64,000 nucleotides of DNA from Heliocidaris erythrogramma (Eukaryota > Echinodermata > Echinoidea > Camarodonta > Echinometridae). A program made the translations under genes and the position numbers. The stretch spans positions 34,728,625-34,792,624 of the forward strand of contig CM046853.1 of NCBI GenBank assembly GCA_025617745.1. Reading direction: 5' to 3'. Of the stretch, positions 14,019-63,958 are shown piece after piece. The notes beneath the pieces were generated by a model, which searched no databases, was not told where the DNA came from, and saw nothing but the letters and a program-made list of their open reading frames with translations. How positions within the stretch are numbered: position 1 is the stretch's first letter; every line of letters starts with the position of its first letter.

Positions 14019-14165
14019 GGGCCCGTTTCATAAAACTTGCTATCAGTAACAACTGGCACATTTCTATGACAAATTTGCTCTCAGCCAATCAGATGCAAGG
14101 ATTTCACTAGCTTATAACAGTTATTGGAACTTGTTTTTTATAACAAGTTTTATGAAACAGGGCCC
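14019..14165 (+). mobile_element. CCAAT-core hairpin element, copy 1
   Basis: 147 bp foldback starting GGGCCCGTTTCATAAAACTT and ending with its inverted match AAGTTTTATGAAACAGGGCCC. The loop side carries the core GCCAATCAGATGCAAGG followed by ATTTCA (14084-14106), shared by five other elements in this window. No target duplication was evident. Non-coding. Confidence 0.85.
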
Positions 14166-16298
14166 TGGTGTTGTTGTGACACGTTTCTGTGATTGAACAT
14201 GCCGCAAAACTGATGAATCTCCTCAGTTTGTGGTATCATGACTTTAAACAAATCACATCTCTATTGTCCACCGGAATACGTCAAATCAGATTAACCGGAA
14301 TTTCTTTTCAAGGCAAGACGTGCAGAACGAATCAAGATATAAATAGAACTTCCGATAACCTCTATTTCTGCTGATTTCGTTCTCGATCTAATAATCTTTT
14401 CTTATTTATGGCCTCCATCAAAATGTAGATGGTCTGTGTAAATCTATGGCATCTTTAATATGGTTATCATGATCACATTTTCAAAATGCATGAAGGTAAG
14501 TAAAAAAATTACATTCCTATGATCTTTTGCTTCATGTCTTTCTCTCTTCCTCCCTGCAATCTCGCCCTCGTCCCTCTCCCCTCTATGTCCTTATTTTTTG
14601 TTTTTAGTTTGTCTTTGTCTTTCCGCTCTCTCTCTTTCTTAAAGTTGAAATTAAAGTTAAAATTAAAGTTTTTCTTGATATTCAAGAAGAAAAAAAAGAC
14701 GTGGTTGAATTGTGCAAATATCAATCACAAAATGCATTTGAAGCACGGTAAAATTAAAAGCGGCTATCGTTTAGGGTGTAAAAGAAAATGTGTGCTATTC
14801 CTATATTTCTATTTTCGTTTAGCAAACACGTGTATGCAAACATGTTTGAAATCACGTTGAGAATTAATTCCTTGGAGAAATAATGCATTCGTAATATTTA
14901 TTTTCTCGTTCCATTTGCTGTCTGCAAGAATTTGTATCGTTCCTCCCACACAGGTCCCCAAAAGGTAGTACCTTTAAGCTAGCACAATACGAACACACCG
15001 TTTAAGAACACATTACCGTCAATCGAAGGACAACGGCCCATTTCTTCGAACTGTTTAAAGCAGATCCTTAGTCTTCTACTTTGTCACGTTATCAGTGATA
15101 CTTTTTATTCGCAAAGTACTGGTAAAGACGTGCAAAAGCAAAATCATTAGTGCAATTGCAACATGATTATTGTTAGTGACATCCAGACCGTTTCTATTAG
15201 CTTACGTGCCTGTTTGAAGAAATAATAGATTTGTATTTGATACCTTGAGCCAATCTAGTTTACCCAACGCCATCAGCTACTTAGCACTTATGTTTTCTCA
15301 GTGTTCTCTTCTTTCTTTTTTATTCTTCAATTAGCCATATTTAACTCAAACCAATGCTGGTGCAGGATTGTTGACAGGAAAGATTAGGTTTTCAAGCTAA
15401 AATCCACTGAAGATATGGTATATATTTCAGATATCATAATCATCCATCGGCCGAAACATTTGTTTCTCACTAGGGATTCACAGAAAATGGTTGCTTTCTA
15501 TCAAATAAAATGTGAATTTAAATGACAGCATTTTGTGCATGAGCATTTCTGAATATGTTGTACAATGAGTGAGTGGAGACATGATACTAAAAAAGGGTTC
15601 ATTTGATGTGCTCGTATGGATGTGGTTTAAAAAAAAAGAAGATGACGATTCCTGAATAGTTAGGTTTGCTGGCTCCCCCATAATCATACATATTGTCATA
15701 ATTTGAGCTGTATGGAAGGTCGACTATAAATCCCAGTGCGCTGGATTGTCCAGGGAAGAACTTTTTGACATTGATCAATGGCGGGGAAACCCCTAGCAAT
15801 CGGTTAAGAATATAATGTGTGTTGTTTGTGCGTGCGTGTGGGTGTCTAACACCCACACCAAATGAAAATAGGTAAATAAAGAAGAAACGAAAACAGAAAC
15901 AGGAACAAATAATACACAAAACAAAAATTAAAATTACGGGTCGAAAAGAGATTCAAGAAAAGAAGCGATAGAAAGGAACGCCAGCAATGAAGTATTGATA
16001 TTTGTAGTTTGTGGCTACTTTTATGTTTAAGAATAATTATTTGGAAAGCATCACTTTTTTTTTTTTATGTGTTATAATATTATGTTTCATTCATTTTACG
16101 ACAGAAGAACGGTAAAAATAATCGAAAAAGTGATTAGAGGAAGGTCGCAAGTACTTGAACATTGAGCAGGTTTATACTTGACGATTGATCCTTGGGTGCG
16201 CAATTTAGAACATTTCACTTCATAAGACTAAAACATTACTAAGCTGAATTTCTTTTAATATTTTCTGTTTTTGCAACATTTTACTCTTATGAAATGTT
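14166..16298. other. No gene recognised; small hairpin at 15836
   Basis: Pyrimidine-rich tract near 14530-14640 and an imperfect AAATTAAAGTT repeat near 14645-14670. A short perfect hairpin (GTGTGGGTGT, 3-base loop, ACACCCACAC) lies at 15836-15858. The minus-strand frame 15599-15919 spans it and shows no recognised domain. Confidence 0.45.
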
Positions 16299-17177
16299 TT
16301 GCGTCCCAGAAAACACGAAACCGAGATTTATCGATGTTTGATCATATCTTAATCGCAATTATGATTAATAAATGACACATATTTTTCAAGCTGGGATTGA
16401 TGCCACTCATTATGAAACATACTTCACGCATGAGTAAATAAAGACAATATGAAGCAGGGCTATCAAAAGTCGTTTGGCCAACGATATCTGAATTTCAAAT
16501 AGATAATCACATTTCTAGAAAGTTCATTTCCTTCCCTTCCATATGACACCTAAATCAGGAAAAATGAGCCAGGGGTGACAAAGCTCTGTTGGTGTAAATT
16601 GATGTTTGCATTTCCATGATTTATTAAAGGCTCCCAAATCGTCTCCATTCTGTTACCAGAAATACTCGTTGCTCTGTTGTTAACTGCATGGTTAAGTAGA
16701 AAACGTACCTATCACTATTAATCAGTTTTTGACATTTTGCACTGACCACTCCCTTTTGTTGACGATCAGCCATGCATGAAGACTTGTTTGTTTATTGCTA
16801 GGAAAGGTAGCCATTGCAAACGGACTAGTGTAATAAATCATGGAAATGCGAGCATCATTTTACACCAACAAAGCTTTGTCATCCCGGCTCACTTTTCCCG
16901 ATTGAGGTGTCATATGGAAGGGCAGAAAATGAACTTTCTAGAAATGTGATTATCTCTTTGAAATTCAGATATCGTTGGCCAAATGACTTGTTGGTAGCCC
17001 TGCTTCATATTGTCTGTATTCATTCATGCGTGAAGTATGTATCATATGAGTGGCATCAAATGAAAGTAGAGGATTCATGCTTTACAAATATGCGTCATTA
17101 ATTTATTAATCATAATTGTGATTAAGATATGATTAAACATCGATAAATATCGGTTTCGTTTTTTCTGGGACGCACTG
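16299..17177. mobile_element. Long-inverted-repeat mariner-like element
   Basis: Two arms, about 16301-16626 and 16831-17173, are reverse complements at roughly 85-90 percent by eye, around a 204 bp spacer. The outer ends read GCGTCCCAGAAAA and TTTTCTGGGACGCACTG, followed by TA on the right. A terminus of CAGTGCGTCCCAG next to TA is typical of Tc1/mariner elements. The left terminus is eroded. There is no transposase. The small frame 16907-17101 lies in the right arm and is not a gene. If transcribed, the arms would form a duplex of over 300 bp. Confidence 0.75.
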
Positions 17178-18890
17178 TATAATACTGATGAGGCTACCCT
17201 GGGTAAACGAGATTAGTAGTAGTATAGTAGTACTAGTAGTAGAATTATTATAGAAATGACGCACGCCGTATGTTATAATTAAGATTTGAGTGATTATGTT
17301 TGGGCAAGATGGGACACGGCAATTCTGGGCTGGATGGGACAGTATATATTTGTGTGTTGTTTTCCATCTCTTTCAGCCATGAAATCTCAGCATCTGTCTT
17401 GTATCATCCTGTCACAAGCATACCTGAACATTCACAAACTCACAATTTAAGAAATGAGCTACATTCATTTTAAGAAGCATATCCCCAAAATAGATAAGTG
17501 CGTATTTACTGAAAAACACTTTTTTTAAAGTACATGCAATACGTAATCAGTCTCCTGTAATCACCACAAGATGGGGTATATAATACATCCCAGATTTGGT
17601 TTCTTAAAATTAAAAAAAAAATTACTAAAAAAAGCATATTTTCTCATATTTTCCCCATAAGTGTTATTGCAAAATGACAGGGAAACACCATACACATGCA
17701 TAGTGTGATAATCTTATGTAAGGTCTTCAGCATAATGAATCGAAAAGCGTCTAAGGCTTTGATGTATTCTAATCATCAATAATCATAGAAAGAAGTATGA
17801 ATAAAGCAATACTGAGATCCCTGTTTTGCTGGGCCTGCGGCTATCGGGAAAGAAATTAATTTCCTCTAGGATAGTTGGCCTATTACTCTTCTTCACTTTT
17901 CTTTCCTATTCGTCATGATGAATATACAACAACGCAAACATCGCAAGCAGTTATACAAATCATAGGTCTATCAACCGGACGTGAATAGTGTACATTTCAT
18001 TTTTTCAGATTAAGTTTAAATAAATTTATTTCCAACTTTCCAATATAAGTATGCAAAGTAGTAAATGAAAGAAATGATGTACATGTGTTTTTAACCCAAA
18101 AATAAAGCAAACAAATTTACGTATACAATGTTCTTTCATTTATTTCCACCTGAAAATATCACTCAGAGCTTGTAAATTCATATACTGGCTTTGTAATATT
18201 TTATATCATATAATAACAGACACGTTATTTTTATGTTATATATTTTTTCTTTGATTTAGAGGTATAGCATTAAGATTAAACTAATCATGTATGAAAAACG
18301 TAAGATAATCTATATAAAATACAAAGTTGTGAATACAGATATTTTTACATACATAAGTTTGTTACCTTCTTTTTTGAATGATTTATGCTGTCTTCTGTTA
18401 CATGTTGTTTATTTCATAGATATTATTTATATTTCTTTTTTTTTCTTTGGAAAAAGAATATTTTATAGCTAAGGTTTTAATATTATTACAGTGTTACAAT
18501 TGAAGTAGGAATTTGGGTCAGAAAATGTTATTTTGAAATTCAGGTTTTTTGGGGTGATACATTACTGATACATCACAAATGTGACATAAGATAATTATGT
18601 ATCTTCGTCGTCATGGCGACAAACTAATTATGAATATGGACAGACTAGGATTCTAACGTTCAGCAAGTTTAGTTCCAATGATATACAGTTAATGATGTCT
18701 ATCGTCAAGGATCGCTAATTCTCAAATTTGACAATTCTTCTTTGAAACCTTGGTCATTACATTATCCGCTTTGAGAAAGTCACTGATAACAAAGGCAACA
18801 TAATTATTCCGATTATATTTAGATAGCTACGCGACTGTAAATTAGTGTGTTGCTCCTTGATAATTATGTCATTTCATGTTCACGCAAACT
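17178..18890. other. No gene recognised
   Basis: AT-rich sequence with an irregular GTA tract near 17213-17245 and a TTTTTTT-rich block near 18430-18450. No exon or repeat terminus could be supported. Confidence 0.5.
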
Positions 18891-18891
18891 C

Positions 18892-18956
18892 CACACACAC
18901 ACACGCGCGCGCGCGCGCTCACACCCACACACACAACACTTATATATATATATATA
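18892..18956. repeat. Compound (CA)n-(CG)n-(CA)n-(TA)n microsatellite
   Basis: CA repeats run directly into an alternating CG tract (about 18904-18918), then CA again, then (TA)n at about 18941-18956. Alternating purine-pyrimidine DNA of this type can adopt Z-DNA. The intact CG alternation is notable because CpG usually decays in animal DNA. A (TC)n tract follows at about 19040-19060. Confidence 0.9.
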
Positions 18957-19062
18957 CAGGCATCATGCTTAGCTTCCAACAGTTTGTTGATACAGTGAAA
19001 TTATTAATATGCATAGAAACGTATATTATGCGATATATTTTCTCTCTCTCTCTCTCTCTTTC

Positions 19063-21480: not shown

Positions 21481-21493
21481 AAATATATATGTA

Positions 21494-21537
<44 letters not shown>

Positions 21538-21564
21538 TACATATATATATATATGTACATACAT

Positions 21565-21607
<43 letters not shown>
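21481..21607. repeat. (AT)n array with embedded GTACATAC blocks
   Basis: Long AT dinucleotide runs interrupted by GTATGTACAT and its reverse complement (ATGTACATAC), so the tract is self-complementary at two scales and prone to cruciform extrusion. It creates artificial Tyr-Ile frames. Confidence 0.95.
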
Positions 21608-21609
<2 letters not shown>

Positions 21610-24841: not shown

Positions 24842-24880
24842 GAAAGAGAGAGAGAGCGAGAGAGAGAGGGGGAGGGAGAA

Positions 24881-24913
<33 letters not shown>

Positions 24914-24914: not shown

Positions 24915-27310
24915 AAGTAGCGCAGCCCAGAGGAGTCATTCGTTATCAATTTGAAGATCTCTGTGTTGACGGTGAACTTTTTTTTTTTTGCAATGTACAT
25001 TAAATACCGAAACCGATATTTTATCCATCGCTCCATTTGGACTATTTTTTTCTCTACAGAAACAGGTGAAAATGGGATTTAGTTTCAGAGCGTCTATGGT
25101 GATCTTTGCCTCAGGATTTGGGGTACATGAAAGCCCGTATTACCCTTAACAGATCCCCAGTGGAGGATAAGGCCCTTTTGGCTTTCGGTCCATTAAATAT
25201 TAAAGATCACTCTGCGGATGCCCTTTAACTTTTCCCGAAAAAAAATCATATTTCTGAGGACAATGCATGATAAATTCGCCATAAATATCCTCCATCGGAC
25301 GGATTATGATACCGGTTATACAAATCCGTATCGAATGGTATGTTATGAGGCTATTAACAATTATATTTCCTTTTAGTCCATTACCCTACGATCTGACTGG
25401 CTTTTGGTCATTTGTTATGATTCATGTGCTGGGATTATTGCAGTGCCAGGTGATCGAAAATTAACGAATCATTCACAATTCACCTGCCATCTGCAAATCT
25501 ATTGATTGTTCTCCATCAAATCGAGCATACATGTACATCTTTGGTAAATATCAAAAAGTAATATATCGGATTTGCTGATAGAAGCTTAATACCCACTATG
25601 CTTACCTGTTTTGTGGTTGCTGTTTTATCTTCATTGAAGTAAAAAGCGAAATGATCAATGAAAAACAGATCCCAAGCCTTGGAGAGAACTAAATTGCCTG
25701 ATCGTTTACTTACCCGTTTGTTTATATGCTCAATTTGACGCTCTTTCGGTCCCCACCTTTTGGTACCCACGGCCGGGGAATGGTTCTTAGAGGGTTGGAA
25801 GGCAATTTTTAAGGGCTGACGTACCGTCCATATTTCATAAATTCATTTCTAAACATTCAATTTCCGGAGGGAGTAATAAATCTGCCGATGGAACAGCGCA
25901 CTGCCGTACGTACGAAAAAGTGCCTTCTGTGATGCCCCAACCCATACCCTTTACCTGTGAAGGGGAGAAACCTCAATTGGTGTACTGCCAAAGAACAACG
26001 TGACGTGTATACTCCAAGGCCATATCCGCAAGTATGGCTTCAATATATACGGCGCAACAACACACGCGTTGTTCGTTCGCACCGCACACGTGCACATACT
26101 TCACGCACATAGTATGTAGCTTCATGGTTAATAGTGTGTATGTAAGGTTTCACGGTGGTCGCGGGGGGGTCTCATTGAGGCCGGTACATCATCCACGTGA
26201 AAACGGATAAAAAGGGTACATGGGGGGGTATAGTTCGGTAATGTGTTCCAAATTACGTAACATTTCTTTTACGGTTCCTTTTTGTCTAAAAAGAGTCTAT
26301 AATAATGATGTCGGCCTAATCCTGAAATATAGGATGTAAAATACCAAGTAAAATATAAAATCGCCGTTAATGGTATAAAAGTCAGAGATAGACGGGTTTC
26401 GCTGTTTAGGGTATCAAAATCTGCCCCAACTTCAATCTGCTTTTCAATTCAGCAAGTGATTTACGCGGATGATATACAGGTCTCAGTGAAACACCCGAGA
26501 ATAGAATTCAATTTCGAGAGAAACTTTCTAAAAAAATAGTTTCTGACTTTTTTCAATAGATCGGTCGATTGAAACAGGAAAATATTTTAATCCCATTATA
26601 TTTATCCCAAATCTCATTTACACATTATAGCCCACCGAGTCAAGCACAGGGGACGAGACGACTGCCTCAAATTCCCTATCGCAAAGTCGTTTGGCACAGC
26701 CATTCCATTTATTTCTAGTCTTGAACATTTAATATACATTTCGTTTGATTTTTTCCTTCATCACTAGAACTCAAGATTTTATGTTCAAAATCTCCCGAGC
26801 ATTGCCTCTTTCTATCTGGCTGTTGATGGCACCCATTACATTTAAACAAAATGACGTTAAAGAGTTTCATGCGATAAGGAATAATAAAAACAATGATTGA
26901 TGTAATCACAATATGCCTAACACACAAACACACACGCACGCACACCTCCCCCCCCCACACACACACCACATCCCCACAGTTAAAGTTAAGCGGTGGTATT
27001 TTTAAAGATATGTTATATTTTATTTAGTGTAAATATGTTCATTGTTATAACAAATCGAAATTAGGCCAGTAGGGCAAGCCATTGCTTAATGTGTGCGCAA
27101 AGTTGACTGCGTTTGCGTATAGTAAAGAGAGACATCTTCCTATAAGCACCAATAATAAGTGTTCATTCCACACAATTGTTGTGACAATTAACACACTACA
27201 GCAGTTGTAGATATCAGACGCCATTTTGAATACTGCGATGGGACAAAGCTTAAGCATACATCATCAATTTACACTTTGCTTTATTTTTGGAATTAAGTGG
27301 AAAACGAGCT
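24915..27310. other. No gene recognised; CA/C-rich tract at 26925-26968
   Basis: A CA-rich microsatellite with a 9-base C run lies at about 26925-26968. The rest shows no exon-like or repeat-terminus signal that I can support. Confidence 0.5.
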
Positions 27311-27459
27311 GGTCCCCGTTTCATAAAACTTGTTATCAATAACAAGTTACAATAATGGTTATAAGCTACTGAAATCCTTGAATTTGATTGGCTGAGAGCA
27401 AATTTGTCATGCAAATGGGGCAGTTGTTATTGATAACAACTTGTATGAAACAGGGCCCT
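27311..27459 (-). mobile_element. CCAAT-core hairpin element, copy 2
   Basis: Foldback of about 149 bp with arms CCCCGTTTCATAAAACTTGTT and an inverted match ending ATGAAACAGGGCCC. The shared core lies on the minus strand at 27370-27392. The stem carries TTATCAATAACAA, which is itself nearly palindromic. An extra 9 bp inverted match (GTGGAAAAC/GTTTTCCAC) lies outside the arms. Confidence 0.85.
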
Positions 27460-27487
27460 GTTTTCCACATTCTAAAATGAGTTGCGC

Positions 27488-29835: not shown

Positions 29836-29882
<47 letters not shown>

Positions 29883-31787: not shown

Positions 31788-31795
31788 CTTGTATT

Positions 31796-32043
31796 CGGGT
31801 CCGCTCGCTATTCATAAGGACCGCTATTCATAGAAAACTGCTATCCATTTAACACGCGTTATGAATAGCGGTCCTTATGAATAGTTATGAATAGTGGTCC
31901 TTATGAATAGCGAGGTAATTTGTCTATGGTTTGCTCGCTATTATGAAGGACCGCTATTCATTTAGTCACGCGTTATGGATAGCGGTCCTTATGAATAAGT
32001 GGTACTTATGAATAGCGGTCCTTATGACTAGCGAGGTTACCCC
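31796..32043 (-). mobile_element. hAT-type MITE, copy 1
   Basis: 248 bp element flanked by an exact 8 bp direct repeat CTTGTATT (31788-31795 and 32044-32051), the duplication size made by hAT transposases. The right end is the inverted form of the left end of copy 2 at 37753. The body is largely reiterations of GAATAGCGGTCCTTAT in both directions, with an internal ACGCGT in each half. Non-coding. Confidence 0.88.
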
Positions 32044-32051
32044 CTTGTATT

Positions 32052-34854: not shown

Positions 34855-36727
34855 CCATTGACCACTGAATTATCTAACTCCCATAGGCTTAATACAAGGG
34901 CCACCCGGTTCCCGTAGACAATGGGCTAAGATTTCCATAGATACTATCAAATATGACAAAAGTAAAATATGGATACGATAGTAATAAGCTTTGATGGACA
35001 CTCTATTATACCTAAAACTAATTTATAGGTATGCAACGAGCATGCTACCTACTAGACTAGGTTCTGATAAAAACAAGTATGTTTAATTCTCCTATTTTGC
35101 ATTATCGATTTGGTCTTATTGTAGTCCTGTCATTGTGATAATAAAAAATACTCTTTAAACAACCTAGGCCCGTTGACAATTCTCATTAATTAATTACTCT
35201 TTGAAAATCTGCGAGTAAAGGATGTTTTGGGGCTGAGATCTTATCCATTACGCATAATGACGCAAATAGTGCAGCAAACCAACTTCGATTGTGTTGGAAA
35301 CTGAAGGTCGGCCGTGATTATTTATGAATGTTGTGTTGCTTTGTGATTGGCTAGTTCCCGGAGAAGTCCATTGTTATATGGATGAAGCGTATTGTGGAAC
35401 TAACCTAAATATGGATTTAGCATGTTATGTTCTGTAACTAGATTTTTTTGTATTGGCAGATTTTTAAACATATATTTTTAACTTTCCCATGAGGAATTTC
35501 AACTTCCTTGACTTGTCTGTCACAGTGTATGTAGCTCCTGGAATTGAGTACATTCACGCGAAAAAGGGTGATAAAGGGATCATGGCTGAATTCTTCACAT
35601 GTAAATGCTAAGAAAGCTGTGTTTTTTTAATTACCAAACATATCATAACCAACACAATTCAAGAATAGCTCTGGCCACCAGATTAAACAATTGTTTCGAG
35701 TATGTGCGTAGAAGAAATGACACAATGAATGAACATAAGAAGCATATTTTTGTACCTCCAGTACCACCCGACTTATTGACGTATTCCTAAGATCAGAAGA
35801 TAGGTAAAATGACATCTGTTATCCATTTATTATTCCCACAATTTCTAGAATTAATTCATGAAATAAATAAAACCATAAAACAGAGCTTCGTCTGTGAGAA
35901 ATTATATTTCTACATTTTATAAATTGTATATGGTAACATCGAATAGTTACTGAGTGGACCTGCCTTACAGTAGAAAACATCAATTGAACAAATGCTTTTT
36001 GTGGGTTCTCAGACCATATGGGAACCTAATTTAAGGGTTTTTAGAAGAAGTTAGGAAAGAGAGAATAGGATATGAGGAGAAAGAATTGAAAAAAAAATCA
36101 GAAATTTTGTCGGTGTTTAGGCCTTTAACAAAATACGACGAATATGAAAGTTGTAGACGGAAAGTGAAGGAAGGGCAGTAATGACAGCGAGCAACGAGAG
36201 AAGACTTGTATTGTTCCTAAATGAATAATGGAAGAAGGGCGTTTCGAAAAAGCCCAAAATGCGTCAAGACCGACACGCTTTCTTATCTAAAAAAATCATA
36301 AAGAAAGTCTTCAATACATCATGAAGATATAAATACGTTGTCATTTCCTGGACATCCTGCCGGGTTACTTACTTGATTCTGGGGTCATTTCAGTGATGGC
36401 ATATAACAACACCCAATTTTGTAATTGCGAAGAGAGCGTGGAAAATTATTTCGTAATAGGCTGTAGGGTATATCGTTTCTTGCAAATGTCATCTTTTATT
36501 TCCTTTTTTTTTTTCTTTGGAGGGATGAAACGTTGGACATGAAAATAATCGGTAGGCATACTGATCTAGGCCGTGCTTCAGAAGGACACTTAATGATAAG
36601 AAATTGCTGGGTACTTGGTATTTGACCTTTCATCCACTTTTATCTTGATCATAGTTTTACTCATAGTTCGGTTATTACATATTATTACATAACATTACAT
36701 ATTACACGATTACATATTTAACAACGG
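34855..36727. other. No gene recognised
   Basis: Frames at 35605-35815 on both strands show no features. Short TTACATATTACA repeats lie at about 36676-36715, just before the LINE. Confidence 0.45.
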
Positions 36728-38344
36728 GGGTTGTGCCTAATGCTATGAAAATAGCCAAAGTCATTCCTATATTCCAAACAAATGATTCATTTAAAGTCAG
36801 TAATCACTTTTAACAACTTTTTCAAAGATACGTGACAAAAATTATCCAGAAGAGACTAATCATATTCATGAATGACTTTGACATTTGTGCAGCATTTAAT
36901 ATGGCTTGAGAGTAAAAAAAACACAGCACGACACATGCTCTTTTAACTCTCTTTGAAAAAGTAACTAAAGCATATAATAACAACTCACACACAATTGGTA
37001 TATTCCTGGACCTCTCCAAGGCCTTCGACAAAATAGATCACATAATTCTTTTACATAGATTACATCATTAGGGAATTAGAGGCAAGGCCTTGGAGTGGTT
37101 CAGGAATTACCTTACAAACATAAGACAATTTGTCTGTATCAATAACTACGAATCTATAGTCATAAGGTTATCAACTCCAAGGTTCGATTCTCGGTCCCTT
37201 ACTTTTTATTATATACATTAACGACTTTTATAGATCATCTCATGTATTATCTTTTATATGACTCGCGGACGACTCAAATATTTTCTTTTCAGATCGAGAT
37301 CCACACCAGATAGTACAATTAGTTAGAAAGTGTAGCTAATTGGATTAGATCGAATAGACTTTCCTTGAATCTTGAAAAAAACAATTTTATGCTTTTCAGC
37401 AATACATCACATACTTTACCGGGGATTGTTATCATGAACGACTATTTCGTAAGCAAATTTTTTTAGGTGTGGCCATCTAAAATCAACTCTCATGGAAACC
37501 ACATATACATGACCTTTGCAAAAAAAGTATCAAAGAAATATTGCTATTTGGTATCAATAATAAACGAAAACATCTTTTCCCTTGCAAGACCACCCCCTAC
37601 ATTATACTGCATCCCTGTTTTATGTCTCTTAAACTATGGTATTCTTTTTAGGTTAACTGTATCAAAATCAACCTAAACAGGGTTTATCTTTTACAGGAAA
37701 GAATAATGAGAATGATTTTTAACAATAGTTACCGGGCACACACCAATTATTGGGGGTAACCTCGCTAATCATAAGGACCGCTATTCATAAGGACCGCTGT
37801 TCACAACGCGTGACTAAATGAATAGCGGTTTTATATGAATAGCGGTCATTCTAAATAGCGAACAAACCATAGACAAATTACCTTGCCATTCATAAGGACC
37901 TCCATTCATAAGGACCACAATTCATAACTGTTCATATGGACCGCTATTCACAACGCGTGTTAAATGGAAAGCGGTTTTCTATGAATAGCGGTCCTTATGA
38001 ATAGCAAGCGGACCCCAATTATTGTTCATTGAATGTAAGTCCCTAAGAATATAATTATGATTTATACTCCCTACAATCTTCAAAATTTTATGTATCAACT
38101 TAACAGAAATGACCTACCAAAAGCACTAGTGCAAATGTTTCTTTAAAACAATGAAATTCACAGATATCAAATCTCTTTCACCCTGCAGGTACAAAAAAGC
38201 TCGCTATACAAAAAACATTCATAGACTGGACCCCGACTTTGGAACTCACTGGACACGGCCTTGAAATAAACCCCAATATTTAACACATTTAAACTTAAAT
38301 ATAAATTGTCCTTGTTGGATATTTACAACAACCAAGAAAAGTAA
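36728..38344 (+). mobile_element. Decayed CR1/Jockey-like LINE, reverse transcriptase to 3' end
   Basis: A 5'-truncated, inactive non-LTR retrotransposon. Translated pieces in shifting frames give MKIAKVIPIF (start of the RT domain), then TIGIFLDLSKAFDKIDH (RT motif A) near 36993-37045, and RGKALEWFRNYLTN. A degraded PQGSILGPL-like block follows near 37172. LADDSNIF (catalytic motif C) at 37262-37285 lies in a different frame from motif A. After further RT thumb and C-terminal blocks (RIMRMIFNNSYRAHTN) the coding part ends KYKLSLLDIYNN and a TAA at 38342-38344. Several frameshifts and stops are present. A hAT-type MITE (37753-38016) interrupts it and is therefore younger. The 3' UTR may run on to about 38830. 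Clade assignment is by motif style only. Confidence 0.85.
37753..38016 (+). mobile_element. hAT-type MITE, copy 2 (inside the LINE)
   Basis: 264 bp element starting GGGGTAACCTCGCTA and ending TAGCAAGCGGACCCC, flanked by the exact 8 bp duplication AATTATTG (37745-37752 and 38017-38024). It is the reverse-orientation relative of 31796-32043. Internal repeats of ATAAGGACCGCTATTCA and two ACGCGT sites give it a multi-hairpin structure. Confidence 0.9.
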
Positions 38345-40801: not shown

Positions 40802-41204
40802 TAATAGAGTACCGAAGTGTGACGTCATCAAATTTTGATTTTTGTATTTCAGTATTTTTATGACCATATTTAGGTAGAGCATGAAGGAAAACGTTCACAC
40901 ATCAAATTTGACATGAATCAGTTCATGGTGGCCCAAGGTATGGCTATATGAATATCTAATTAGCCCCATTGGAGTCAGTGTAAATTGGCCTGGTTCTTAA
41001 CAGTTTAGAACCAGGCCAATTTAACACTGACTTCAATGGGGCTAAGGAGGTATTCATGCGGCCATATCTCGGGGCCCAATGAGCCAATTGCCATAAAATT
41101 TGGGATCTGGATGTTTTTCACAATATTCCTTTGAGGTATGGTATAAACAATGTAAAAATGAAAAAAATAGCTTTTTGTGACGTCATCACTTCGGTACTCT
41201 ATTA
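40802..41204. mobile_element. 403 bp palindromic element with a CRE in each arm
   Basis: Ends TAATAGAGTACCGAAGTG and its inverse CACTTCGGTACTCTATTA. The arms match through to a near-perfect centre at about 40983-41025 (TTGGCCTGGTTCTTA, short loop, TAGAACCAGGCCAA). Each arm carries TGACGTCA (40820-40827 and 41178-41185) next to the end. TA at the ends could be a target duplication. No coding capacity. GAACTGGCT just outside the right end also occurs inverted upstream at about 40489 and 40649. Confidence 0.7.
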
Positions 41205-43597: not shown

Positions 43598-43857
43598 CCC
43601 AGTCACACCAACCAGAACGACACCGGGGGGGGGGGGCGTTCCATGAAAGGACTTGTCAGATATTTTATCTGGCAAATTTGCTCTCAGCCAATCAGATGCA
43701 AGGATTTCAGTAGCTTATAACACTTGTCGGATAAAATATCCGACAACTTCCTTTCATGAAACGCCCACCAGAACGACAATAGACCGAGCAAAATACGTTA
43801 CCCCTATAGTGGTCAAGATATCAATCGGTTTAGAATCGGTTGGGCAGTGTGACTTGG
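43598..43857. mobile_element. Small inverted-repeat element split by a hairpin
   Basis: The left edge CCCAGTCACACCAACC and the right edge GGTTGGGCAGTGTGACTTGGG are imperfect inverted matches. Without the hairpin insertion at 43623-43766 (and one 12 bp duplicate) the element would be only about 105 bp. Non-coding. Confidence 0.45.
43623..43766 (+). mobile_element. CCAAT-core hairpin element, copy 3
   Basis: 144 bp foldback. Arms are GGGCGTTCCATGAAAGGAC then TTGTCAGATATTTTATCTG, matched by inverse CCGACAACTTCCTTTCATG. The shared core is at 43687-43709. Flanked by an exact 12 bp direct repeat ACCAGAACGACA (43611-43622 and 43767-43778). The left end has a 12-base G run (43625-43636) where the right end has only GCCC. 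The stem differs from copies 1 and 2. Confidence 0.88.
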
Positions 43858-45039: not shown

Positions 45040-45412
45040 TTTACCTACAATCACGTCTATATCACTCTTTTTGCATCGTAATCTTAATTTTGCCACATAA
45101 TGTCTATGATGTTTTTGTAAATATGAATGTGTATCTAATTGTATACAGAATCGTATTTTACTGTGAATTTTTTTGAATGATGTATTTGTACTACATTTGA
45201 TTGAGCTATTGAGCTGCAATATGGTTTGAATAAATAGTGTTTCATCAAGCTTTTTGTCAGTGATTTATACCGACAACTGTTGTAAGCTACTGAAATCCTT
45301 GCATCTGATTGGCTGAGAGCAAATTAGTCGGTGAAAATCACTGACAAAACGCTTGATGAAACGCTCCTATGGTTTGAATAAATACCTTTTCAATTCAATT
45401 CAATTCAATTAA
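45040..45412 (+). repeat. Probable LINE 3' end with (CAATT)n tail
   Basis: A T-rich block ends in GGTTTGAATAAATACC, TTTT and a (CAATT)4 run at 45391-45410, the kind of short tandem tail carried by CR1/L2-like LINEs. It is split by CCAAT-core hairpin copy 4. No coding remnant was identified, so the family is uncertain. Confidence 0.4.
45237..45368 (-). mobile_element. CCAAT-core hairpin element, copy 4
   Basis: 132 bp foldback with arms GTTTCATCAAGCTTTTTGTC and the inverse ACAAAACGCTTGATGAAACG. The core is on the minus strand at 45291-45313. Flanked by an exact 16 bp direct repeat ATGGTTTGAATAAATA (45221-45236 and 45369-45384). The left terminus lacks the AGGAGC present at the right. The stem is the same subfamily as copy 6 at the window end. 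Confidence 0.9.
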
Positions 45413-49500: not shown

Positions 49501-51216
49501 TCTTGTTTAACATAGTGGTTCCATGGTCATAATTAATAACAGGCATAAGTCTTTAAGAAATCCCTTCCTCATCTCCTCTGGGGTTAGGGGGAGCTCTGCC
49601 TTTTTTATGCCTATTTAGGAGCTACTTAAGATATGGTTTCAAAGGGTACATAATTTACTGCGCACCTGCGAAAAATGAGTTCTGTAACTTTACACAGCAT
49701 TCATCGCGCATAATATTCAGATCGGCGTCTGCCCAAGTAAGTGTTGTTTTCATAAGTCAACTCTGTAGTTATCTTCCAGAAAGTCATCGCCTTTCGTTAC
49801 ACAGTTGGCAGCTGACTGTTGCTTCTTCTTGACGCTATCGTTAATTGATATAAAAGACCAGCCTCCATGCTGGAATTATTTCGATGTCCCAAAGTTTTCC
49901 TCCCACTTAATTCCTTTCACATGAGTAATTATTTGTCTTCCACCTGCCACCATTCCATCTTGTTTCTAGTCAAAGTATATATTTGTTTCTTTTCAGTGAA
50001 TAGTGTCATTAACGATTTCTAGTTGTTGAGTTTTGCTATTTGTTAGTAACCTGTTGTCATTATTTTCAAAACCTTTGAAGGTATGACTTGTCTAATTTTC
50101 ATTCTCGTCATTTTTCTTCGGAAACATACCTCTAACACATTGACCATCTTTTTCCATTTCCTTGCATGTGTTTAACTCACACAAGTCATCCGTATTCCAT
50201 ATGACACATACCAGTATTCACACTCCCAGTCTTGATACCACGACGGTATTTGAGTTTAACAGAAAGGATATCTCTCTTCTTTGAAAGCTCATCTTCTGCC
50301 ACTGGACCCCTTTTCTTAATCTCCTCCTCACTCTTACATTCAGATGAAATCAATCTTCCAAGATAGTTTGAATTGATGAGGACCTAACTCGTCTGATTTC
50401 TGTGTCGTTTACCCAGATATTACACGGAGAACGCCATCTTATTTTACCGTCTAAATTTGCTTATAATTCATATAATTATATATATATATATATATATATA
50501 TACCTGTGTGCCAAATGTGGTGCTTTCATCTCAAAATGCACAATTGATCGGCTATGCCGCTCCACTATTATTTTGATTCTTTTCTAATTCTTTTGGGTTC
50601 TTCTTTATGTTTCTTAAGATCATCTCTCATATACATGTAATAATGCCAAAGACTACGTTTTTATCTACAAATACAAGCCTAGCTTTTTACTAGATTACCT
50701 CATATTTCACGCCCAATTTGTTTGTCTTATCCCAACTTTAAAATGATGGAATATTGATCGTGTCTCTATATGTCCACTTGCATATTTATTTCCTGCGTTG
50801 AAAGTATTGAAGCTGTTTCCTTATAGTATTGTAATAATGTACTGGTCATTGTCAACCTTCCATTCATGTGATATGATATCAAATATGAAAAACACTGAAA
50901 GTGAAACCCTTTTCTATCTCAACAAACTCACCCACTTCACCATCGATTTAACACTTACTGTGCCATTCTGCTATTTGGCACAGACTCTACACACAAATCC
51001 CATTGAAGTGTGTTTTATGTGGCAAACAAGAAGTTAATCTGTTGCCTCCAACAAAAGCTCCTTATTATTCTTAGGACCAACGTGACATCTTAAACCCAAT
51101 GGAAAATAAGAAGTTTTGATTGCCCAATAGAAACTAATCGAATTACACAGGAGGATGAGTAAAAAATTTCCATAAAATTAGACTTCAGCGGGAAACCATT
51201 CAGAATCTGTACTTCT
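46596..51216. other. Gene-less stretch, (TA)n at 50478-50502
   Basis: About 4.6 kb without a supported gene. Frames at 47151-47461 and 47687-47905 lack domains. A TA microsatellite lies at about 50478-50502. A 12-base A run lies near 49036. No repeat terminus recognised. Confidence 0.45.
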
Positions 51217-51374
51217 GGGCCCCGTTGCATAAAACTTACCATTAATGGTAACTCTGCTATCAATGGTAACTACCATGGTAACATCACTCAACGGCCAATC
51301 AAAATCAAGGATTCCATGGGAGTTACCATTGATGGAAAGTTACCGTTAATGGTAAGTTTTATGCAACGGGGCCC
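51217..51374 (+). mobile_element. CCAAT-core hairpin element, copy 5
   Basis: 158 bp foldback. Arms GGGCCCCGTTGCATAAAAC then TTACCATTAATGGTAAC pair almost perfectly over more than 35 bp. A second inner pair ATCAATGGTAACT/AGTTACCATTGAT adds to the stem. The core is a diverged version at 51294-51316 (GCCAATCAAAATCAAGG), 19 of 23 identical to the others. Repeated GGTAAC motifs make the stem itself palindromic. No target duplication was found. Confidence 0.85.
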
Positions 51375-53622
51375 TGCATTGGTAACTACTTCACATTCAC
51401 CATTTTTGCAACACCTCTAGATCTAAGGAAATGGTTTTAATTTGTCTATGTTCCTCACAATCGGTACCAATTCACGTCTATAAATAGGTGATGCTATGAT
51501 CCAGTTATGGTGATCCGGCTTTGATGGGTTACTAAAACTTCTACAAATTATGGTGTCGTTCTAGTGGTATTTGCAATTTTCTTGTGATAAAAGATAGAGA
51601 GAAGAGGAGAGAGGGGGAGAAAGAGGGTGAAATAGAAAGAGAGAGAGAGAGAGTTAAAGGGAGAAGGAGAGGTAACGGTAAATGAATTTGACACGACAAT
51701 TATAAAACCTCAGCCACACCGCCACACCACCACACCCAAACCGATCGATTCTTGGCCATTCGTTGTAAAGTAAGGTTTGGTCGGTCTGTTGTAGGGCTCG
51801 TGTCGATCTTGTCGGTTTGGCTAAGGTATTACACACCCTTTCTTCACTCACTTCACTAACTTTGTTCTCTCGCTTTTCATTAACTTTATAGTAAGACCTG
51901 TGCCCCCACCACCCCCCCCCCCTCCCTCCTCTCCCGCCCCCACCATTGACAACGGTGCCCTTTCTATGGCTAGACCCACGCTGCTGCACTCACTTTACAT
52001 TATCAGGTGGCAACATATTTCAACCAAAGCTATGCCAGACCGCACTGGCCAGACCTTAAGCCGATTTAGTCATATCAAATTCTTCCTTCCCCGTCAATGA
52101 AAAATGGGAAAAAGAAATAAGGTGCCTCAGAGACAGCTTTTGAAAAAACACGATACTGAAGTAGTAGAACATAGAAATAACAAGGTCATAATAAACATCC
52201 TATGTTACCATGGAAATAATAACATCTATTTCAAGCAATTTGCCGTAGTAGGTAGGTATATATGTTCATGAACAAAAATGGAATCGCTAGAATGTACTTT
52301 GGCAGATAAGACAACACAACAAAATATGATGATAAACAGCACACCTTGGGCAACAATTAGTATGATTGCTAATGCAAATATTGCCCTAATGGAATTTTCA
52401 CCATTGTGTTTAAAAAAAAATCAAAAAAGAAAAGAAAAAAAAATGGTTGTGATCAAGTACTATATAATTCTCTAAGGTTGCAATTCTATTTTTGGATTTA
52501 CCGAAATGCCAATTTGTGTTCATGGAGGCCTTGTTGATTCTAATTTGTTGGTAGTAACCCTCGTTAATATCACTCCTGCTGAATTTACATGGTCAAATTA
52601 AGAATAAATGATTCATTATCAAGGAAGGCCTCTTTCCCTCGTTATTCATTTCTCTCTCCCTCTCTCCCTCTCTCTCTCTATCTCATTCTCTCGCACTTCC
52701 TCCTCATCCCTACTTTTCTCCATTTAAAAACAATAAACAAACGTTTAAATGAGCCGCTACCAAATATATTTTTACCCTCTCTTTGAGCTTAAAAGACCAT
52801 TATTATTTTGTTTATCTTGGATCAAATAAGAGGTCGGAAGAAAAAATGGCGGAATTGTAAGCTTACGCTTATTCTTTAAGTTTGGGTAGTAAAATTGCTC
52901 ATCAACCAATAGTTATTTGTTCAGTTCAAAATTATTTGAACTTCGTCTGTTAAATTCACTACTGATTGATATTAATCTGTGAGATATTGGAAGATTGACA
53001 TTTGGCACTTAATAGATCAGTGGTCTAATTTAAACCAGATTAAAGCTAATTACATGTATATGAAGTGTGGTAACTGTACTGCATTGCGAGGGAAATTTGC
53101 TTTAAGTAATTATCAATAGTTTATTATGGATGGGTTGTAAAGTCAAGCAAAATAAGCGAACTGTAAAAATAGGAAATGTAGTTATGCTTAATTATTAAGG
53201 GTGCCACTAAAGGTAATGAAAGTTGGTACAAATTTGATGCCTTGGTTATACTTATCACCCCTTTATTTATGAAGGATCGAAACTCCGCTCTACCACACAA
53301 TTTGGAGTACATTATACATGTACACTGTAAGTGTGACAAAAGTCGACTGTAGCAGTTCCCTGTTTGTTACTTTGTTCGACCAAAGTCTGTAAATAGTTAA
53401 GATTAAAATCCACAAAATCTTCAAAGTCAGGCACAGTGATAATTATGATTATACTTAACTGATGAGGATTTTCTTTGTAATTCTTTCATTGCTTGGGTCA
53501 TGTTTGAGATATAACGATTTGATTGTTTAAGAAAATAACTGTTACTTTCATCTTATTTTGAGTCCACTACATGACAAGCCAATGACGAAGTAATATAAAC
53601 CATTACATTTTGTTGATCATCC
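51375..53622. other. No gene recognised; purine and pyrimidine tracts
   Basis: GA-rich tract at about 51595-51660, C-rich tract at about 51903-51945 (with an 11-base C run) and TC-rich tract at about 52645-52700. They account for the Gly/Arg-rich and Pro-rich frames at 51654-52100. No exon supported. Confidence 0.5.
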
Positions 53623-54015
53623 GGGGGGGGGGGGGGGTACTCGTTTTTGACGAATTTTCATAATTCTAAATGTACGTAATTCCGAAACACAAATTTCCCA
53701 TAGGAGGGGGTTCATAATTCCCAAAAGTGAAATAGGGTTCATAATTCCGATTTCCGAACATTTGCTGCAGTATCCGAACGTTCGTTACTCCGGAGATTAA
53801 ATAGGGTTCGTAATTTTCGAAAAGGAAAAAGGGTTCATAATTCTGAAGGTACGTAATTCCAAAAATGTAATAGAGCCCTAAAAATCTTTTCGGAATTACT
53901 AACCTTCGGAAATATGAACCCTTTTTCATTTTCGGACCGACGAACCGTCAGGGTAACGAACCTTCGGAAAAACGTTCGGAATTATGAACCTTCGGGGAAA
54001 AAACGACACGGAACC
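53623..54015 (-). mobile_element. TTCGGAATTAYGAACC foldback element, copy 2
   Basis: About 390 bp relative of 12771-12990 in reverse orientation. It begins with a 15-base G run into GTACTCGTTTTTGACG and ends CTTCGGGGAAAAAACGACACGG. The left half carries the 16-mer as GGTTCATAATTCCGA, the right half as TCGGAATTATGAACC, so it folds back. The minus-strand frame 53666-53929 is a by-product with repeated NYEP peptides. It is longer than copy 1 through extra repeat units. Confidence 0.75.
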
Positions 54016-57250: not shown

Positions 57251-57279
57251 GGAGGGGTGGGGTGGGGGGGGGGGGTAGG
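57251..57279 (+). repeat. G-rich tract with quadruplex potential
   Basis: Reads GGAGGGGTGGGGTGG and continues into a 12-base G run (57264-57275). At least four G runs of four with one-base spacers satisfy the usual G-quadruplex pattern on the plus strand. It follows an (ATT)n repeat. Confidence 0.75.
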
Positions 57280-58997: not shown

Positions 58998-60074
58998 GGA
59001 TGACACTTTCACGATTTTTGGTCCCGCACTGCCCCGCATTGAATGCGTGCCAGTGCGTGACAGTGCGTGCCACTTCAGTGACACGCACTGGCATGCATAG
59101 TTCCCGCATAGTTCCCGCATTGTTCACGCATTGTTCACGCATAGTTGACGCATAGTTCACGCATAGTTCACGACTATTTTACAAGTAGTTTGCGCATTGT
59201 GTTAACTATCAAAAAAAAAAACAACAAAAAAACAAGGCAGACGCCCGGCAGACGTCTATTCGCTCTCGTGTTTTCATTAATTCAGCATAACTATCGTCAT
59301 TAAGATGTTGAATTCTGAAGAAGCTAATTTAGAAGAGAGAAGGTGTTTATATGTAGCTGCAGGAGCATTAATAGTTTATCAACAAGAAAGAGATCTTGAA
59401 GAAAGACGAGAAGAGGAGAAAAAAGTAAAAAGAAAAAGGAGGACATTGTGGGTGAAAGATTGGCTGTCAAGACGCCACATCTACGGACATTTTGATCATT
59501 TACTGGCAGAGCTGCATAGGGAGGATCAAAAGAGCTATAAGAATTTCTTGAGAATCACTCCTGATCTGTTTGAGGAAATGGTTGAAAAGCTAACGCCTCA
59601 TCTGGAGAAGAAAACAACGTTTATGCGAGAACCACTAGAAGTTGGAATGAAACTAGCCGTCACTCTCCGTTTCTTGGCAACGCATCACGTGACTGATATG
59701 CGCGGTCCTTGCGTGAAAGTGCGCGAAGGATGCGCAACCACTGCGCAAATTATGCGGGACCATGTCGTGAACTAGTCGTGAAGTGCGTGCCACATTCCCG
59801 GGGGTGGGGTACCCACTGTTTTTACGCCACGCACTGGCACGCATTGGCACGACTTGTTTGCGCATAGTTTGCGCACAGTTCACGCACTGCTGCAATGCGG
59901 GAAGTGCGTGGCAAAATTTTCAACATGTTGAAAAAATTTTTTCGCTCTTCACGCATTGCCGCGCATTGCCGCGCATCGTCCCGCCCCTTCCCGCAAGTGT
60001 CCACGCATTGGCACGCATGATGCAATTTCAGTGCGTGAACTATGCGGGAACCGAAAATCGTGAAAGTGTCAACC
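58998..60074 (+). mobile_element. Non-autonomous PIF/Harbinger-type element with subterminal arrays
   Basis: The ends are inverted repeats sharing TGACACTTTCACGATTTT and GGT (left from 59001, right to 60071), with GG/CC just outside. Inside each end lie dense short repeats: on the left, units such as TTCACGCATAG and TTCCCGCATTG in an 11 bp phase (59090-59173); on the right, CACGCATTGGCA, GCGCATTGCC and TTTGCGCATAG types. A perfect TTTTCAACATGTTGAAAA palindrome is at 59917-59934. Between the arrays sits the nuclease fragment at 59305-59682. No clean 3 bp target duplication was seen, so the superfamily call rests on the nuclease piece. Confidence 0.75.
59305..59775 (+). pseudogene. Truncated HARBI1/ALP1-like PIF/Harbinger nuclease, N-terminal part
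   Basis: Open frame of 156 codons from ATG 59305. Residues 1-48 are charged, with ERDLEERREEEKK and KVKRKRR. Residues 49-126 match the conserved N-terminal region of Harbinger nucleases: WVKDWLSRR (49-57), the LLAELHREDQKSYKNFLRI block (66-84), DLFEEMVEKLTPHL (87-100), MREPLEVGMKLAVTLRFLAT (107-126). In the family this region precedes the DDE catalytic domain. Here similarity stops at LRFLAT (nucleotide 59682) and the rest of the frame is translated repeat array, so all catalytic Asp/Glu residues are absent and the product could not cut DNA. Intact family proteins are usually about 350-450 residues. The frame is still open, which suggests a fairly recent loss or selection on the fragment. It could also be a captured first exon. 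Confidence 0.85.
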
Positions 60075-63000
60075 TAGCTTATACTAACAAGGCGCGTCAA
60101 AAGACCGCGCCAATCGCTGACACAGTCCTATACGTCAGTCCATGACACGTCGAGTTCAACCCTATGGTTCAACCCGGGCATTAAAGCATGTGTGCTTTTA
60201 AAACATTGGACGTACAGATTAATGGTGGATCCTATGACTCCGATTTGAAGTGTTTTCACTTTGCCATTATTTGTGGTTAGGCATTCAGTGTAGAGCAATT
60301 TTTTCACTAATGAATTATTGGAGGAAAAGGGTTGTGTTGACGTCTGTGTGTGCTGTGAAAAATAACATGTGGGTGAATATTGTGTGGTGGGTGTGTGGGT
60401 TTGTGTATAGTGGGCGAGGAGTGTGTGGCGCCTTTTTGTTTGTTTATAATGCGACACTTCATCACTGGTTTCATTTTAGAAGCTTTTCGGTTTTGGTTTG
60501 GACCTGGAATTGGGCTTCTAGTTAGCTGCCCCCTTCAGGATTCTGAAGCCTCCCCCGCCCCGCTTCCCTTTTTCTTAAAGATTTATTATGATCCTCTTAC
60601 CTCTTAACTTTGACATCTTTACTCTTATAAACTGCAAGAAAATAGACGGGGGACTGTAATGAAAAGCTAGCATTATTGACAGGCTTTGATTAGATGTTTC
60701 CCGGACGAGGTATGAAATCAATCTTCATCTACACTCATAGCCAGAACATTACCGCCTCCAATTAGCTTCTTCGATAATTTACTAAGGTTAAGACAGACTC
60801 TTCGGGGGAAACAAGTATATGAAATTTCCCTACCAATTGGTCATCGGACGCAACGCCTACGCAGATAACAATCGCTTCAGACACTGCAGTTGGAAAAGTC
60901 TAGGCCGAAATATTTCAAAATATTTGCAGGAAATTTCCATACTTGTGGACAGTTTAGGGTGTCTTCTATCAATATGACACCAAAATTCTGGCAATATTTA
61001 AAGCTCGGGTGAGCAATAGCGACCTCTGCGAAAGGGAGCAAAATCCCGACTTAAGGAGAATTGGTATTTGTTCTGGCTGGTATTAACAAATTTGAGAACC
61101 TTCAAAAGTTGACATTTGGAAAAATTCACCCCAAATGAACATTTAAAAATATGTTCATGGAATTTTCATTGCTATGAAATCTCTCCTATCAAATGACACC
61201 AAGACATCTAACCATAATTCACACCTGAGTGAGTAAAAGCCATCGAACCTTTTTTTCGGATGAGGGGGGGGGGGGGCAATGAAGGTATGTACATGTAGTG
61301 ATGATTATTTCATGATTTTAACGCCTCTTAATTTCCAGCTTCTCCACGGTTACATGAAGCAGGGAAAAAAAATTGGGGGGGGGAACCAACTGCCCCCTGA
61401 CCTCTCCTCCCCCCCCCCCCCCCCGATCAAAACCCCTGAAAACAGATACCGAATCTTGTTAGTCTGGATTTAGCACCTTTTCACAAAAAACGGAGATTTA
61501 AACCAACCTTAAGAAACCCTGCAAGAAAATAGATTGCAACATTGAAATTAAGTTCCAAGTCAAAATGTACAGTCATATCTATTTTACTTTAGCTTTTGGA
61601 CAGGGATTATACAAAATATATGTCGTTCAGTGTATCTCTCCCACACTCTCAACATCAAATAATTTCATCCTCGCAGATTCTTTTTTTCTCCAATCAAGTA
61701 ACGAGTAGGAACAAAGGACACGATTGCCAGGTGACTATCCTGTTTAATCTGCTTGTTCTCATCTGAATCTAGCGAAGATCGATGAGTTTTCTGTTTCGTA
61801 TCGTCATATCGCCATATCGATTCAAATCGACTAAAAAAAGAAAGCGCAAACCCGTCCTTCCTTTAGGCAAAATATAAAATTATCTAAATGCAGGATAAAA
61901 CTTGATGAATTATCTCCCTCGAAGATCCAAACACGCTGTAAGCAGCTGGACATAATTAATCACCTTGAAAATATCTAAAAACATTGAGAAAACTATGATA
62001 TCATCTTATTGCGACTTTTTTCTTACGGAAGCTGTTGGACAGCTCTGAGTTTTGCTCGTACCTCCTTATCGAGCTTTAATTTTCTTCGATGTCAATGTTT
62101 CTGATTCCCGCCGTCTTGAAGCAGCTATACGTTTAAATAAAGCAACATAATCAGTTTTCCAGGCGTGGCAATTGAATATAAAAAGAAATGCTTACAGATG
62201 TTTGAAAAGTATTGCTTATATTACGATTCCAACGAAATTACTTCCCCCAGTCTATTCACACACAATCACACTCACCCACACATACGCACGTAGGGACGCG
62301 TTAAAAGGAGTAGACGTTTTAAAAGTGGTATGCCATGTTTAATGCTCTTTTTGTTATAATTTTTCCACTCAATTCTAGAAACTAAAATTGATTTTCCATA
62401 CATAAATATTTGCTGTGCGTTTGATCTACCAGCATATAAGATTCCCTTATAATGCCTATACGCTATACATGTTTCAAGCTATATATGAGCAGTCCCATTC
62501 ATGCCGTCGAAAAGTATGAATTTTAAAGGGTGTGGCAAGTCGTAATCCATGGGCCTAACCAGTTGGCCTGACTCGGGGAAATTCGGATCCAATCAGGTCC
62601 AATCGTGCGCTACCGAAGGAATGTTATTGCCGGATTCCTCGTGCGATCGTTAACTCGAATCCCTCCATACGCAACCGACCAATAAGATTCAAATACTGGA
62701 ATAAAGAACGCGCGATCTTGTTTACTCAAATTTGGGTCAGTGTGCGAACTTTTATTAGCTGCGCACGATAAATTGAAGTCGCTCTGAACTTTGATCCAGA
62801 GAAAGGAGCAGCCAACTGTAAAAGCGCCCTTAGATTGCGACTTGTCGATCCCTTTAACTTGCAAATATGACACAAAATCTTCAAAAAGTGCTTTCCCTCT
62901 TGACCTAATGATACATCACAGGAGAATTCTAGAAGGCATCATTCATCAAGACTCTCCTAAATGACTTATGCTTGCGACAGGTTTTTCTGCCCGTTTTACA

Positions 63001-63816
63001 CCAAATCGGGTGGAATATCGAATTCCAGTTTAACCTACATTTCTGATTTCCCTAGCGAGATTTCGACCGGTCTAGCTTGTTTGAAAGTACTGCTCCTAAA
63101 GTGATCGATCATCTTACTCTCCTCGCGGATAAATTGTGGAAAACTCATCCTGTCCTCAAAGAATGTCGATAGCCATTGTTTACTAAGGAAAACATTATAA
63201 AATATACATTTTTTTCGAGTCGGGAATATTATTATTATTAATCATTGTATAAGATAATGTGTCTCTCCATATTTTTCGCCCAGTGATTTCTTTTCAGGTT
63301 GGTATTCGTCTGTTTTTGTTTATTTTTTGTTTTTGTTTTCGGGTTGTCGAAAGAGGCTTTTCTTTCACATATAAAACTCGCTAAGATCGGGCTGAAGTGC
63401 GAGTTTTAAAATAAGTCCAGGTTTTTAAGAAAAATCTCCACGTTCTTTGCCTTCCTTCCTCTTGGCTTCATCAGGTTTGCTTTTGATCGATGCAGCAAGC
63501 TGGTTGTAATATAGGGATGGAGACTGGTGCTGTCATTGATTGTTTAACTAGCTTTGAGTAGGAATACAGATGAGATTCGATAGAACACTCTGATTCGACA
63601 ATGTTCGATGTAATAGAAGGATGAATAATTTAGGGCCGTAATGAAGTGGAATAAGCGTGCGCTTATAAATGGTATAAAGAATATAGAATGATATCAAAAC
63701 ACCCAAATAATTGTGTTTTCCGTTATTCTATTGGGGAATTCATGATCATGATCAATTCCTTTCTTTTTTAGAGTGCATATGCTTTATAATTATATCCACT
63801 ATATCTGATGTATGTC
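60075..63816. other. No gene recognised; G and C homopolymer runs
   Basis: Contains a 14-base G run (61263-61276), a 9-base G run (61375-61383) and a 16-base C run (61409-61424). GTTCAACCC is duplicated around 60149-60175. Frames at 60128-60607 and 62610-62873 have no recognisable domains. Confidence 0.45.
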
Positions 63817-63958
63817 CAGGGGAGCGTTTCATCAAGCATTTTGTCAGAGATTTTTACCGACTATTTTTATAAGCTACTGAAATCCTTGCATCTGATTGGC
63901 TGAGAGCAAATTTGTCAGCAAAAATCACTGACAAAACGCTTGATGAAACGCTCCCCTG
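63817..63958 (-). mobile_element. CCAAT-core hairpin element, copy 6
   Basis: 142 bp foldback with 45 bp arms pairing at 41 of 45 positions, starting CAGGGGAGCGTTTCATCAAG and ending in the inverse. Core on the minus strand at 63878-63900. Same stem subfamily as copy 4 (TTTTGTCAGTGATTT). No target duplication found at this copy. Confidence 0.88.

Follow-up and report, generated by a model that had tools for sequence, protein, structure and literature searches.

A constant core with apparently exchangeable arms in a likely CWG-target family of miniature inverted-repeat transposable elements of Heliocidaris erythrogramma

How can short hairpin elements share one middle when the arms around it differ? 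The question is raised by a stretch of 64,000 nucleotides of the Heliocidaris erythrogramma genome (assembly GCA_025617745.1, contig CM046853.1, positions 34,728,625 to 34,792,624 of the forward strand), hereafter called the window, in which six such elements had been proposed. The explanation that we favor, and that we consider probable as a whole, is that the elements belong to a family of miniature inverted-repeat transposable elements (MITEs) with a CWG target site and a constant core, the arms of which were exchanged by replacement.

Six elements with a common middle

All six inverted-repeat elements of the original prediction were found at their places, and their arms are of the four types described there, which we call A, B, C and D. 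Inverted arms enclose each of the six matches to a 17-bp core sequence (14084(+), 27376(-), 43687(+), 45297(-), 51294(+) and 63884(-), with 0, 2, 0, 0, 3 and 0 mismatches, respectively), and the elements are 130-156 bp long. The mean number of matches expected by chance is 0.12, and none of 100 shuffled sequences reached six. A core of 23 bp had been predicted for all six copies. Six matches are indeed present, but the core is inexact in the copies at 27311 and 51217, and the common part is longer than predicted: about 50 bp in five of the six window copies and 51 bp in the consensus sequences of the arm classes.

Element 1 (14020-14164, forward strand, core 14072-14122) and element 2 (27312-27457, reverse strand, core 27354-27404), the boundaries of which were set by eye, have class A arms and carry CTG on both sides (14017-14019 and 14165-14167; 27309-27311 and 27458-27460). 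Element 3 (43625-43768, forward strand, core 43675-43725) has class C arms. It is followed by CAG on the right (43769-43771), and a run of 12 G blurs its left boundary. Class B arms are found in elements 4 (45237-45367, core 45275-45325) and 6 (63820-63955, core 63862-63912), both on the reverse strand. The ends of element 4 are trimmed and lack CWG, whereas element 6 is flanked by CAG (63817-63819) and CTG (63956-63958), which mismatch at W. Element 5 (51218-51373, forward strand) has class D arms around a diverged core 17-mer (51294-51310) and CTG on both sides (51215-51217 and 51374-51376). No open reading frame of 150 amino acids is present at any of the six, and a Pfam scan of ten open reading frames of the window gave no family at E 0.001. 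Element 2 is additionally located inside a small inverted repeat of host DNA (GTGGAAAA and TTTTCCAC, 27298-27305 and 27461-27468), a single case that may reflect chance or a target preference.

The extreme ends of the elements are constant and consist of a G/C-rich stretch and GTTTCAT, as had been predicted, with CWG in the flanks. The constant core between different stems had also been described as opposite to the pattern of an ordinary MITE family. This is an overstatement, as the terminal motif and the target site are constant too.

Copy number, target site and ends

The source genome was searched as 1.06 Gb in 26 contigs, and all match counts are lower bounds. It contains at least 29,094 matches to the core with up to two mismatches (14,423 forward and 14,671 reverse), as compared to 13 matches of the reversed control sequence (7 forward and 6 reverse). 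The first 100 core places listed, all of them exact 17-mer matches from the start of contig C1, constitute our sample, and this selection bears on every statement of core conservation made below. Together with the window, 102 copies could be mapped. Arms were classified at 85 of the 100 places and in neighboring copies with up to three mismatches, and two copies near the ends of their stretches, including the window copy at 63817, were left out of the arm table. The exact 24-bp core has no match in either viral_contigs or genome_contigs, and a literature search found no report of an element bearing it.

The target site is best seen in class B, of which 45 copies remained after both anchors had been required and near-duplicates removed. 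The three bases immediately outside GGGAGC..GCTCCC are C in 42, W in 43 and G in 42 copies on the left, and C in 42, W in 41 and G in 37 copies on the right, and this CWG sits in a palindromic YCWGR context. Identical CWG triplets on both sides are present at window elements 1, 2 and 5 and at a copy with one B and one C arm (L055). We then joined the flanks of 74 copies and searched them against the fetched DNA. Three pairs gave a clear paralogous empty site, in which a single 3-bp site takes the place of the element: one is ungapped over 190 bp (L023 against L039), one has TGT as its 3-bp site (L025 against L024), and one is located in the window itself (34879-34929, reverse strand), where both flanks of the element of L040 (copy at 2000) are found. 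A fourth candidate (L081 against L030) is gapped. The elements are thus short, non-coding and numerous, possess terminal inverted repeats (TIRs), and duplicate a target site for which empty counterparts exist, and it is very likely that they form a CWG-target MITE family of non-autonomous DNA transposons.

Elements 3 and 4 had suggested a different origin, namely short interspersed elements moved by a retrotransposon, with long target duplications of variable length. Direct repeats adjoin both of them, one of 12 bp at element 3 (ACCAGAACGACA) and one of 17 bp at element 4 (TATGGTTTGAATAAATA, 45220-45236 and 45368-45384), where it replaces CWG. The idea was dropped in view of the CWG triplet, which is the rule on both sides of the sampled copies, and of the empty sites, which correspond to a 3-bp duplication. 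The copies that were inspected end in neither poly-A nor a comparable tail, and the 12-bp repeat seems to belong to a host repeat of short tandem units that is also found beside another copy (L054). Retroposition is refuted for the family at large and retains practically no credence as an explanation; element 4 is still odd.

Consensus ends are GGGAGC in class B, the arms of which are about 44 bp long, GGGGGC in class C, and GGC following the CWG in classes A and D. In a published survey, the NuwaI group of the PHIS superfamily is described as having a CWG target duplication and TIRs of 12-61 bp, usually with GGG at their start (PMC4482050). A CWG duplication combined with GGG..GTTTCAT ends is thus the mark of the NuwaI elements within this PIF/Harbinger-like superfamily. 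The genomic setting is also alike, an animal-type genome with many DDE_Tnp_4 transposases (150 were scored of 581 candidates here). The family described here differs in that its copies are short and non-coding and that no partner with the same ends was found in the transposase flanks read. That survey searched by transposase and, by its own account, possibly missed MITEs (PMC4482050). A NuwaI-type MITE would be expected to be mobilized by the DDE transposase of an autonomous relative that shares its ends and has a second open reading frame of the Myb/SANT type.

In one transposase family of the source genome, a CAG-flanked end, GGCTGATATTCATAAAA, is similar but not equal to the ends of the core-bearing elements, and only this end of the family was seen. 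A copy with an ATG and open reading frames following its core (L056) was tried as the autonomous element and rejected: a retroelement (1-2090 of L056, reverse strand) has inserted into a B-type MITE and splits it, with TAGCTTATAACA on both sides. Its motifs are presumably those of a reverse transcriptase and a GIY-YIG-like domain. Two further MITE-like elements without the core (L026, position 2995, and L025, position 3326, both on the reverse strand) have like ends, CAG or CTG followed by GGGGGTGTTTCAYAAAG, and other insides. In the window, a 164-amino-acid open frame (59281-59775, forward strand) lies amid dense GCACGCATTG-type repeats. It has no Pfam match at E 0.001, and by eye we take it to resemble a Harbinger (HARBI1-like) transposase over the N-terminal region.

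Arm classes, mixed copies and folding

Tourist-like MITEs of the PIF/Harbinger group are short, non-coding and present in high copy number, with a fixed terminal motif and a 3-bp target duplication. The core-bearing family departs from them in its long, class-specific palindromic arms, which surround one constant middle. The 87 classified copies comprise 51 B/B, 14 C/C, 6 A/A, 1 D/D, 10 B-left/A-right and 1 B-left/C-right elements, as well as 4 with one unclassifiable arm. Hence, each stem type stays with its own partner in all six window copies, as had been claimed, but not across the genome. The B-core-A pattern has at least 1,601 genome matches at up to three mismatches, a threshold that might let in a few A-left copies, and none in the control; among the matches listed, it is exact in 78 of 100. 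The corresponding figure for B-core-B is at least 8,081 matches, again with none in the control, and for the D pattern it is at least 302, an undercount because that pattern is about three bases off the D consensus. The opposite mix, A-core-B, has a single exact match, and an intact A left signature is present in 6 of 100 among the matches listed. Its pattern count of 1,152 was discarded as a class size, as the matches listed were mostly B-left variants. The one-way excess of B/A suggests that this class has spread as a unit, as both products would be expected from simple crossing-over.

Consensus sequences were derived from 4 A/A, 9 B/A, 47 B/B and 12 C/C copies, with a median divergence from consensus of 4.5%, 4.0%, 3.2% and 1.6%, respectively. 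All 51 core positions, 17 of which belong to the search probe and 34 of which are independent of it, are identical in all six comparisons among these consensuses. The arms behave differently. With GTTTCAT set aside, the right arms of A and B, and the left arms of A and of B or C, are about as similar as shuffled arms, whereas the B and C arms are alike at 0.63-0.67 (shuffled means 0.46-0.48). The B/A consensus consists of a B left arm and an A right arm, with an identity of 0.90 each without GTTTCAT, and its right arm resembles the B right arm at only 0.48 (shuffled mean 0.45). In the B/B consensus, the right arm is the inverted left arm, counted from the end up to the base that precedes CAGTT, and the TT that the junction has in common with the A right arm is what would remain after a template switch. 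Ordinary substitution in the arms would be expected to have changed the core as well. Since copies are so close to their consensus, an identical core between unlike arms is easier to read as replacement than as substitution. Arm replacement, which the original prediction had offered as one of two possibilities, is thus supported both by this identity and by the numerous mixed copies.

The near-chance similarity of the A and B arms could also be expected of independent MITE families that came to carry the same core by chance or convergence. However, 51 identical bases in the same place and orientation, together with the mixed B/A elements, mean that the middle is of common descent. Independent origin is therefore refuted for A, B and C, and we find it scarcely believable as a general explanation; the conclusion does not extend to class D, with its 3 mismatches in 17.

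Alternatively, the core might be a functional cis-element that selection conserves in source copies, for instance an NF-Y-bound CCAAT box or an enhancer of transposition within the element, while the stems drift and correction keeps the arms complementary. The identity of the four class consensuses in the core agrees with this, as does the divergence in 64 class B copies, which is 2.0% in the core outside the probe and 6.2 and 6.7% in the arms. Class D retains CAGCCAATCA amid differing core bases, which is at most a hint of constraint, and the core contains CTCAGCCAATCAGA, which we take to fit the NF-Y consensus. The lower core divergence may nevertheless be an effect of sampling, given the selection by an exact 17-mer, the CpG and subfamily sites in the arms, and the C copies, in which the right arm and the core differ from consensus by 1.7% and 1.6%. 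Moreover, exact B-left/A-right mixes are beyond the reach of drift. A literature search on NF-Y, CCAAT and MITE returned nothing. We regard the cis-element explanation as unlikely.

Selection on hairpin folding, the other possibility raised originally, would mean that inserted copies are kept as hairpins for a small RNA or chromatin function and that their stems covary. When copies are folded as single-strand DNA and pairs between the left and right arms are counted, the medians are 37 for B/B, 35 for C/C, 25 for A/A and 10 for B/A (0 to 16 in nine copies), and in the fold of the B/A consensus each arm pairs with itself. As the mixed copies are so numerous in the genome despite lacking the long stem, the full hairpin is not needed for spread. 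Over 44 stem pairs of the 64 B copies, we counted 300 one-sided changes, 18 two-sided compensatory ones and 10 two-sided non-compensatory ones. An earlier set of 65 copies, possibly including mixed ones, had 454 one-sided and 15 compensatory changes, with 8.6 of the latter expected. Folding is slightly favored by the shuffling of right arms, which gives 12.0 compensatory changes (standard deviation (sd) 2.7; 32 of 1000 shuffles reach 18) and 2454 paired states (sd 6.3) as compared to the observed 2473 (8 of 1000 as high). A strong site pair (18/119, Fisher p 0.0003), which acts like a subfamily marker, explains part of this excess. The excess of paired states is weak, and in individual copies decay is mainly one-sided. 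The window has no Rfam family matches, and nothing in these counts has the character of a structured RNA or a microRNA-like hairpin. The folding hypothesis is thus unsupported, and we judge it very improbable.

A proposed origin of the arm classes

Under arm replacement, each new class would start from a source element in which recombination or template switching has put a different arm in place of one of the two. The identical core would serve as homology for the switch, which would produce the asymmetric B-core-A form. In a further switch, the new arm would be copied inverted onto the other end, giving B-core-B and restoring a near-perfect hairpin. Because the arm is copied inverted, the perfect palindromes would be a by-product and not a product of selection by the cell. 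Class C would have arisen either by a repetition of the same process or by taking its ends from a related family. An order from A or B/A to B/B and then to C/C is proposed on the basis of median divergence. The transposase would recognize the terminal motif together with class-specific subterminal palindromes rather than the whole hairpin. Inner palindromes of the TTGTY..RACAA type, a different one for each arm class, are indeed present, and it is plausible from the sequence that these are candidate protein-binding sites. The core with its CCAAT motif would most simply be what is left of the promoter region of the ancestral autonomous element, although this last step is a guess.

Several observations weigh against this explanation, in addition to the 17-bp repeat of element 4, the excess of paired states and the few A-left copies that the B-core-A count might include. 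In 9 of the 30 B/B copies with CWG on both sides, W disagrees between the sides. The probability of this is 5e-5 under a mismatch rate of 6%, itself assumed, and the disagreement seems to exceed what decay would give. The difference always lengthens the palindrome by one pair, and one idea is that it arises when an extruded stem is corrected at an A-A or T-T mismatch. Two of the ten mixed copies (L052 and L053) are near-duplicates. Eight distinct mixed copies carry both anchors. In L001 and L052 the CWG triplets of the two sides are identical, and L023 can be added if its G-run is taken as one base short; the remaining five lack such a match, so that formation in place is conceivable for some mixed copies. 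Outside the core-bearing family, no source of the B or C arms was identified, nor was a transposase with matching ends found in the flanks of four transposase families, which were read in part. Finally, the proposed class order rests on small samples selected by the exact core 17-mer.

A precedent for arm exchange is Galileo, a transposon of the P superfamily in Drosophila mojavensis, for which copies with TIRs of two subfamilies, or with TIRs and a middle of different subfamilies, are described (PMC3573991). These chimeras, 12 of 170 copies and without matching target duplications, are ascribed there to recombination or conversion (PMC3573991). The likeness is one of process, the exchange of TIRs between subfamilies, and not of family membership, as the superfamily differs. 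Galileo chimeras are few and lack matching duplications, whereas the B/A class is large and some of its copies have matching CWG, from which we conclude that the mixed class probably spread as a unit. What is new here is a MITE family of a known transposon group in which TIR exchange has a precedent in Galileo, and which is set apart by its scale and by the apparent spread of the mixed class.

The window also contains repeats of other kinds. Two inverted repeat regions of about 270 bp with TTATGAATAGCGGTCC units (approximately 31793-32044 and 37703-37998) are 81% identical over 271 columns and about 6 kb apart, and are perhaps the ends of a larger element. A long inverted repeat at 16467-16989, with arms of 107 and 55 nt (93% and 91%) and about 200 nt inside, is unrelated to the core. 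Two further hairpins have arms of 48 nt (53818-53934, 88%) and 97 nt (40888-41117, 72%).

It is a tentative possibility that the 51-bp core has shifted, as a passenger, between sets of transposon ends and was mobilized successively by different transposase families. If true, a small MITE would outlive its helpers by swapping the end modules that they recognize, with inverted copying restoring its symmetry. The gain of new recognition ends, and the survival of transposase loss by short non-coding elements, are rarely visible. Here the mixed intermediate is abundant beside the symmetric forms, and the constant middle serves as a marker. Strong genomic hairpins also need not mean selection on folding, as a copying mechanism can produce them.

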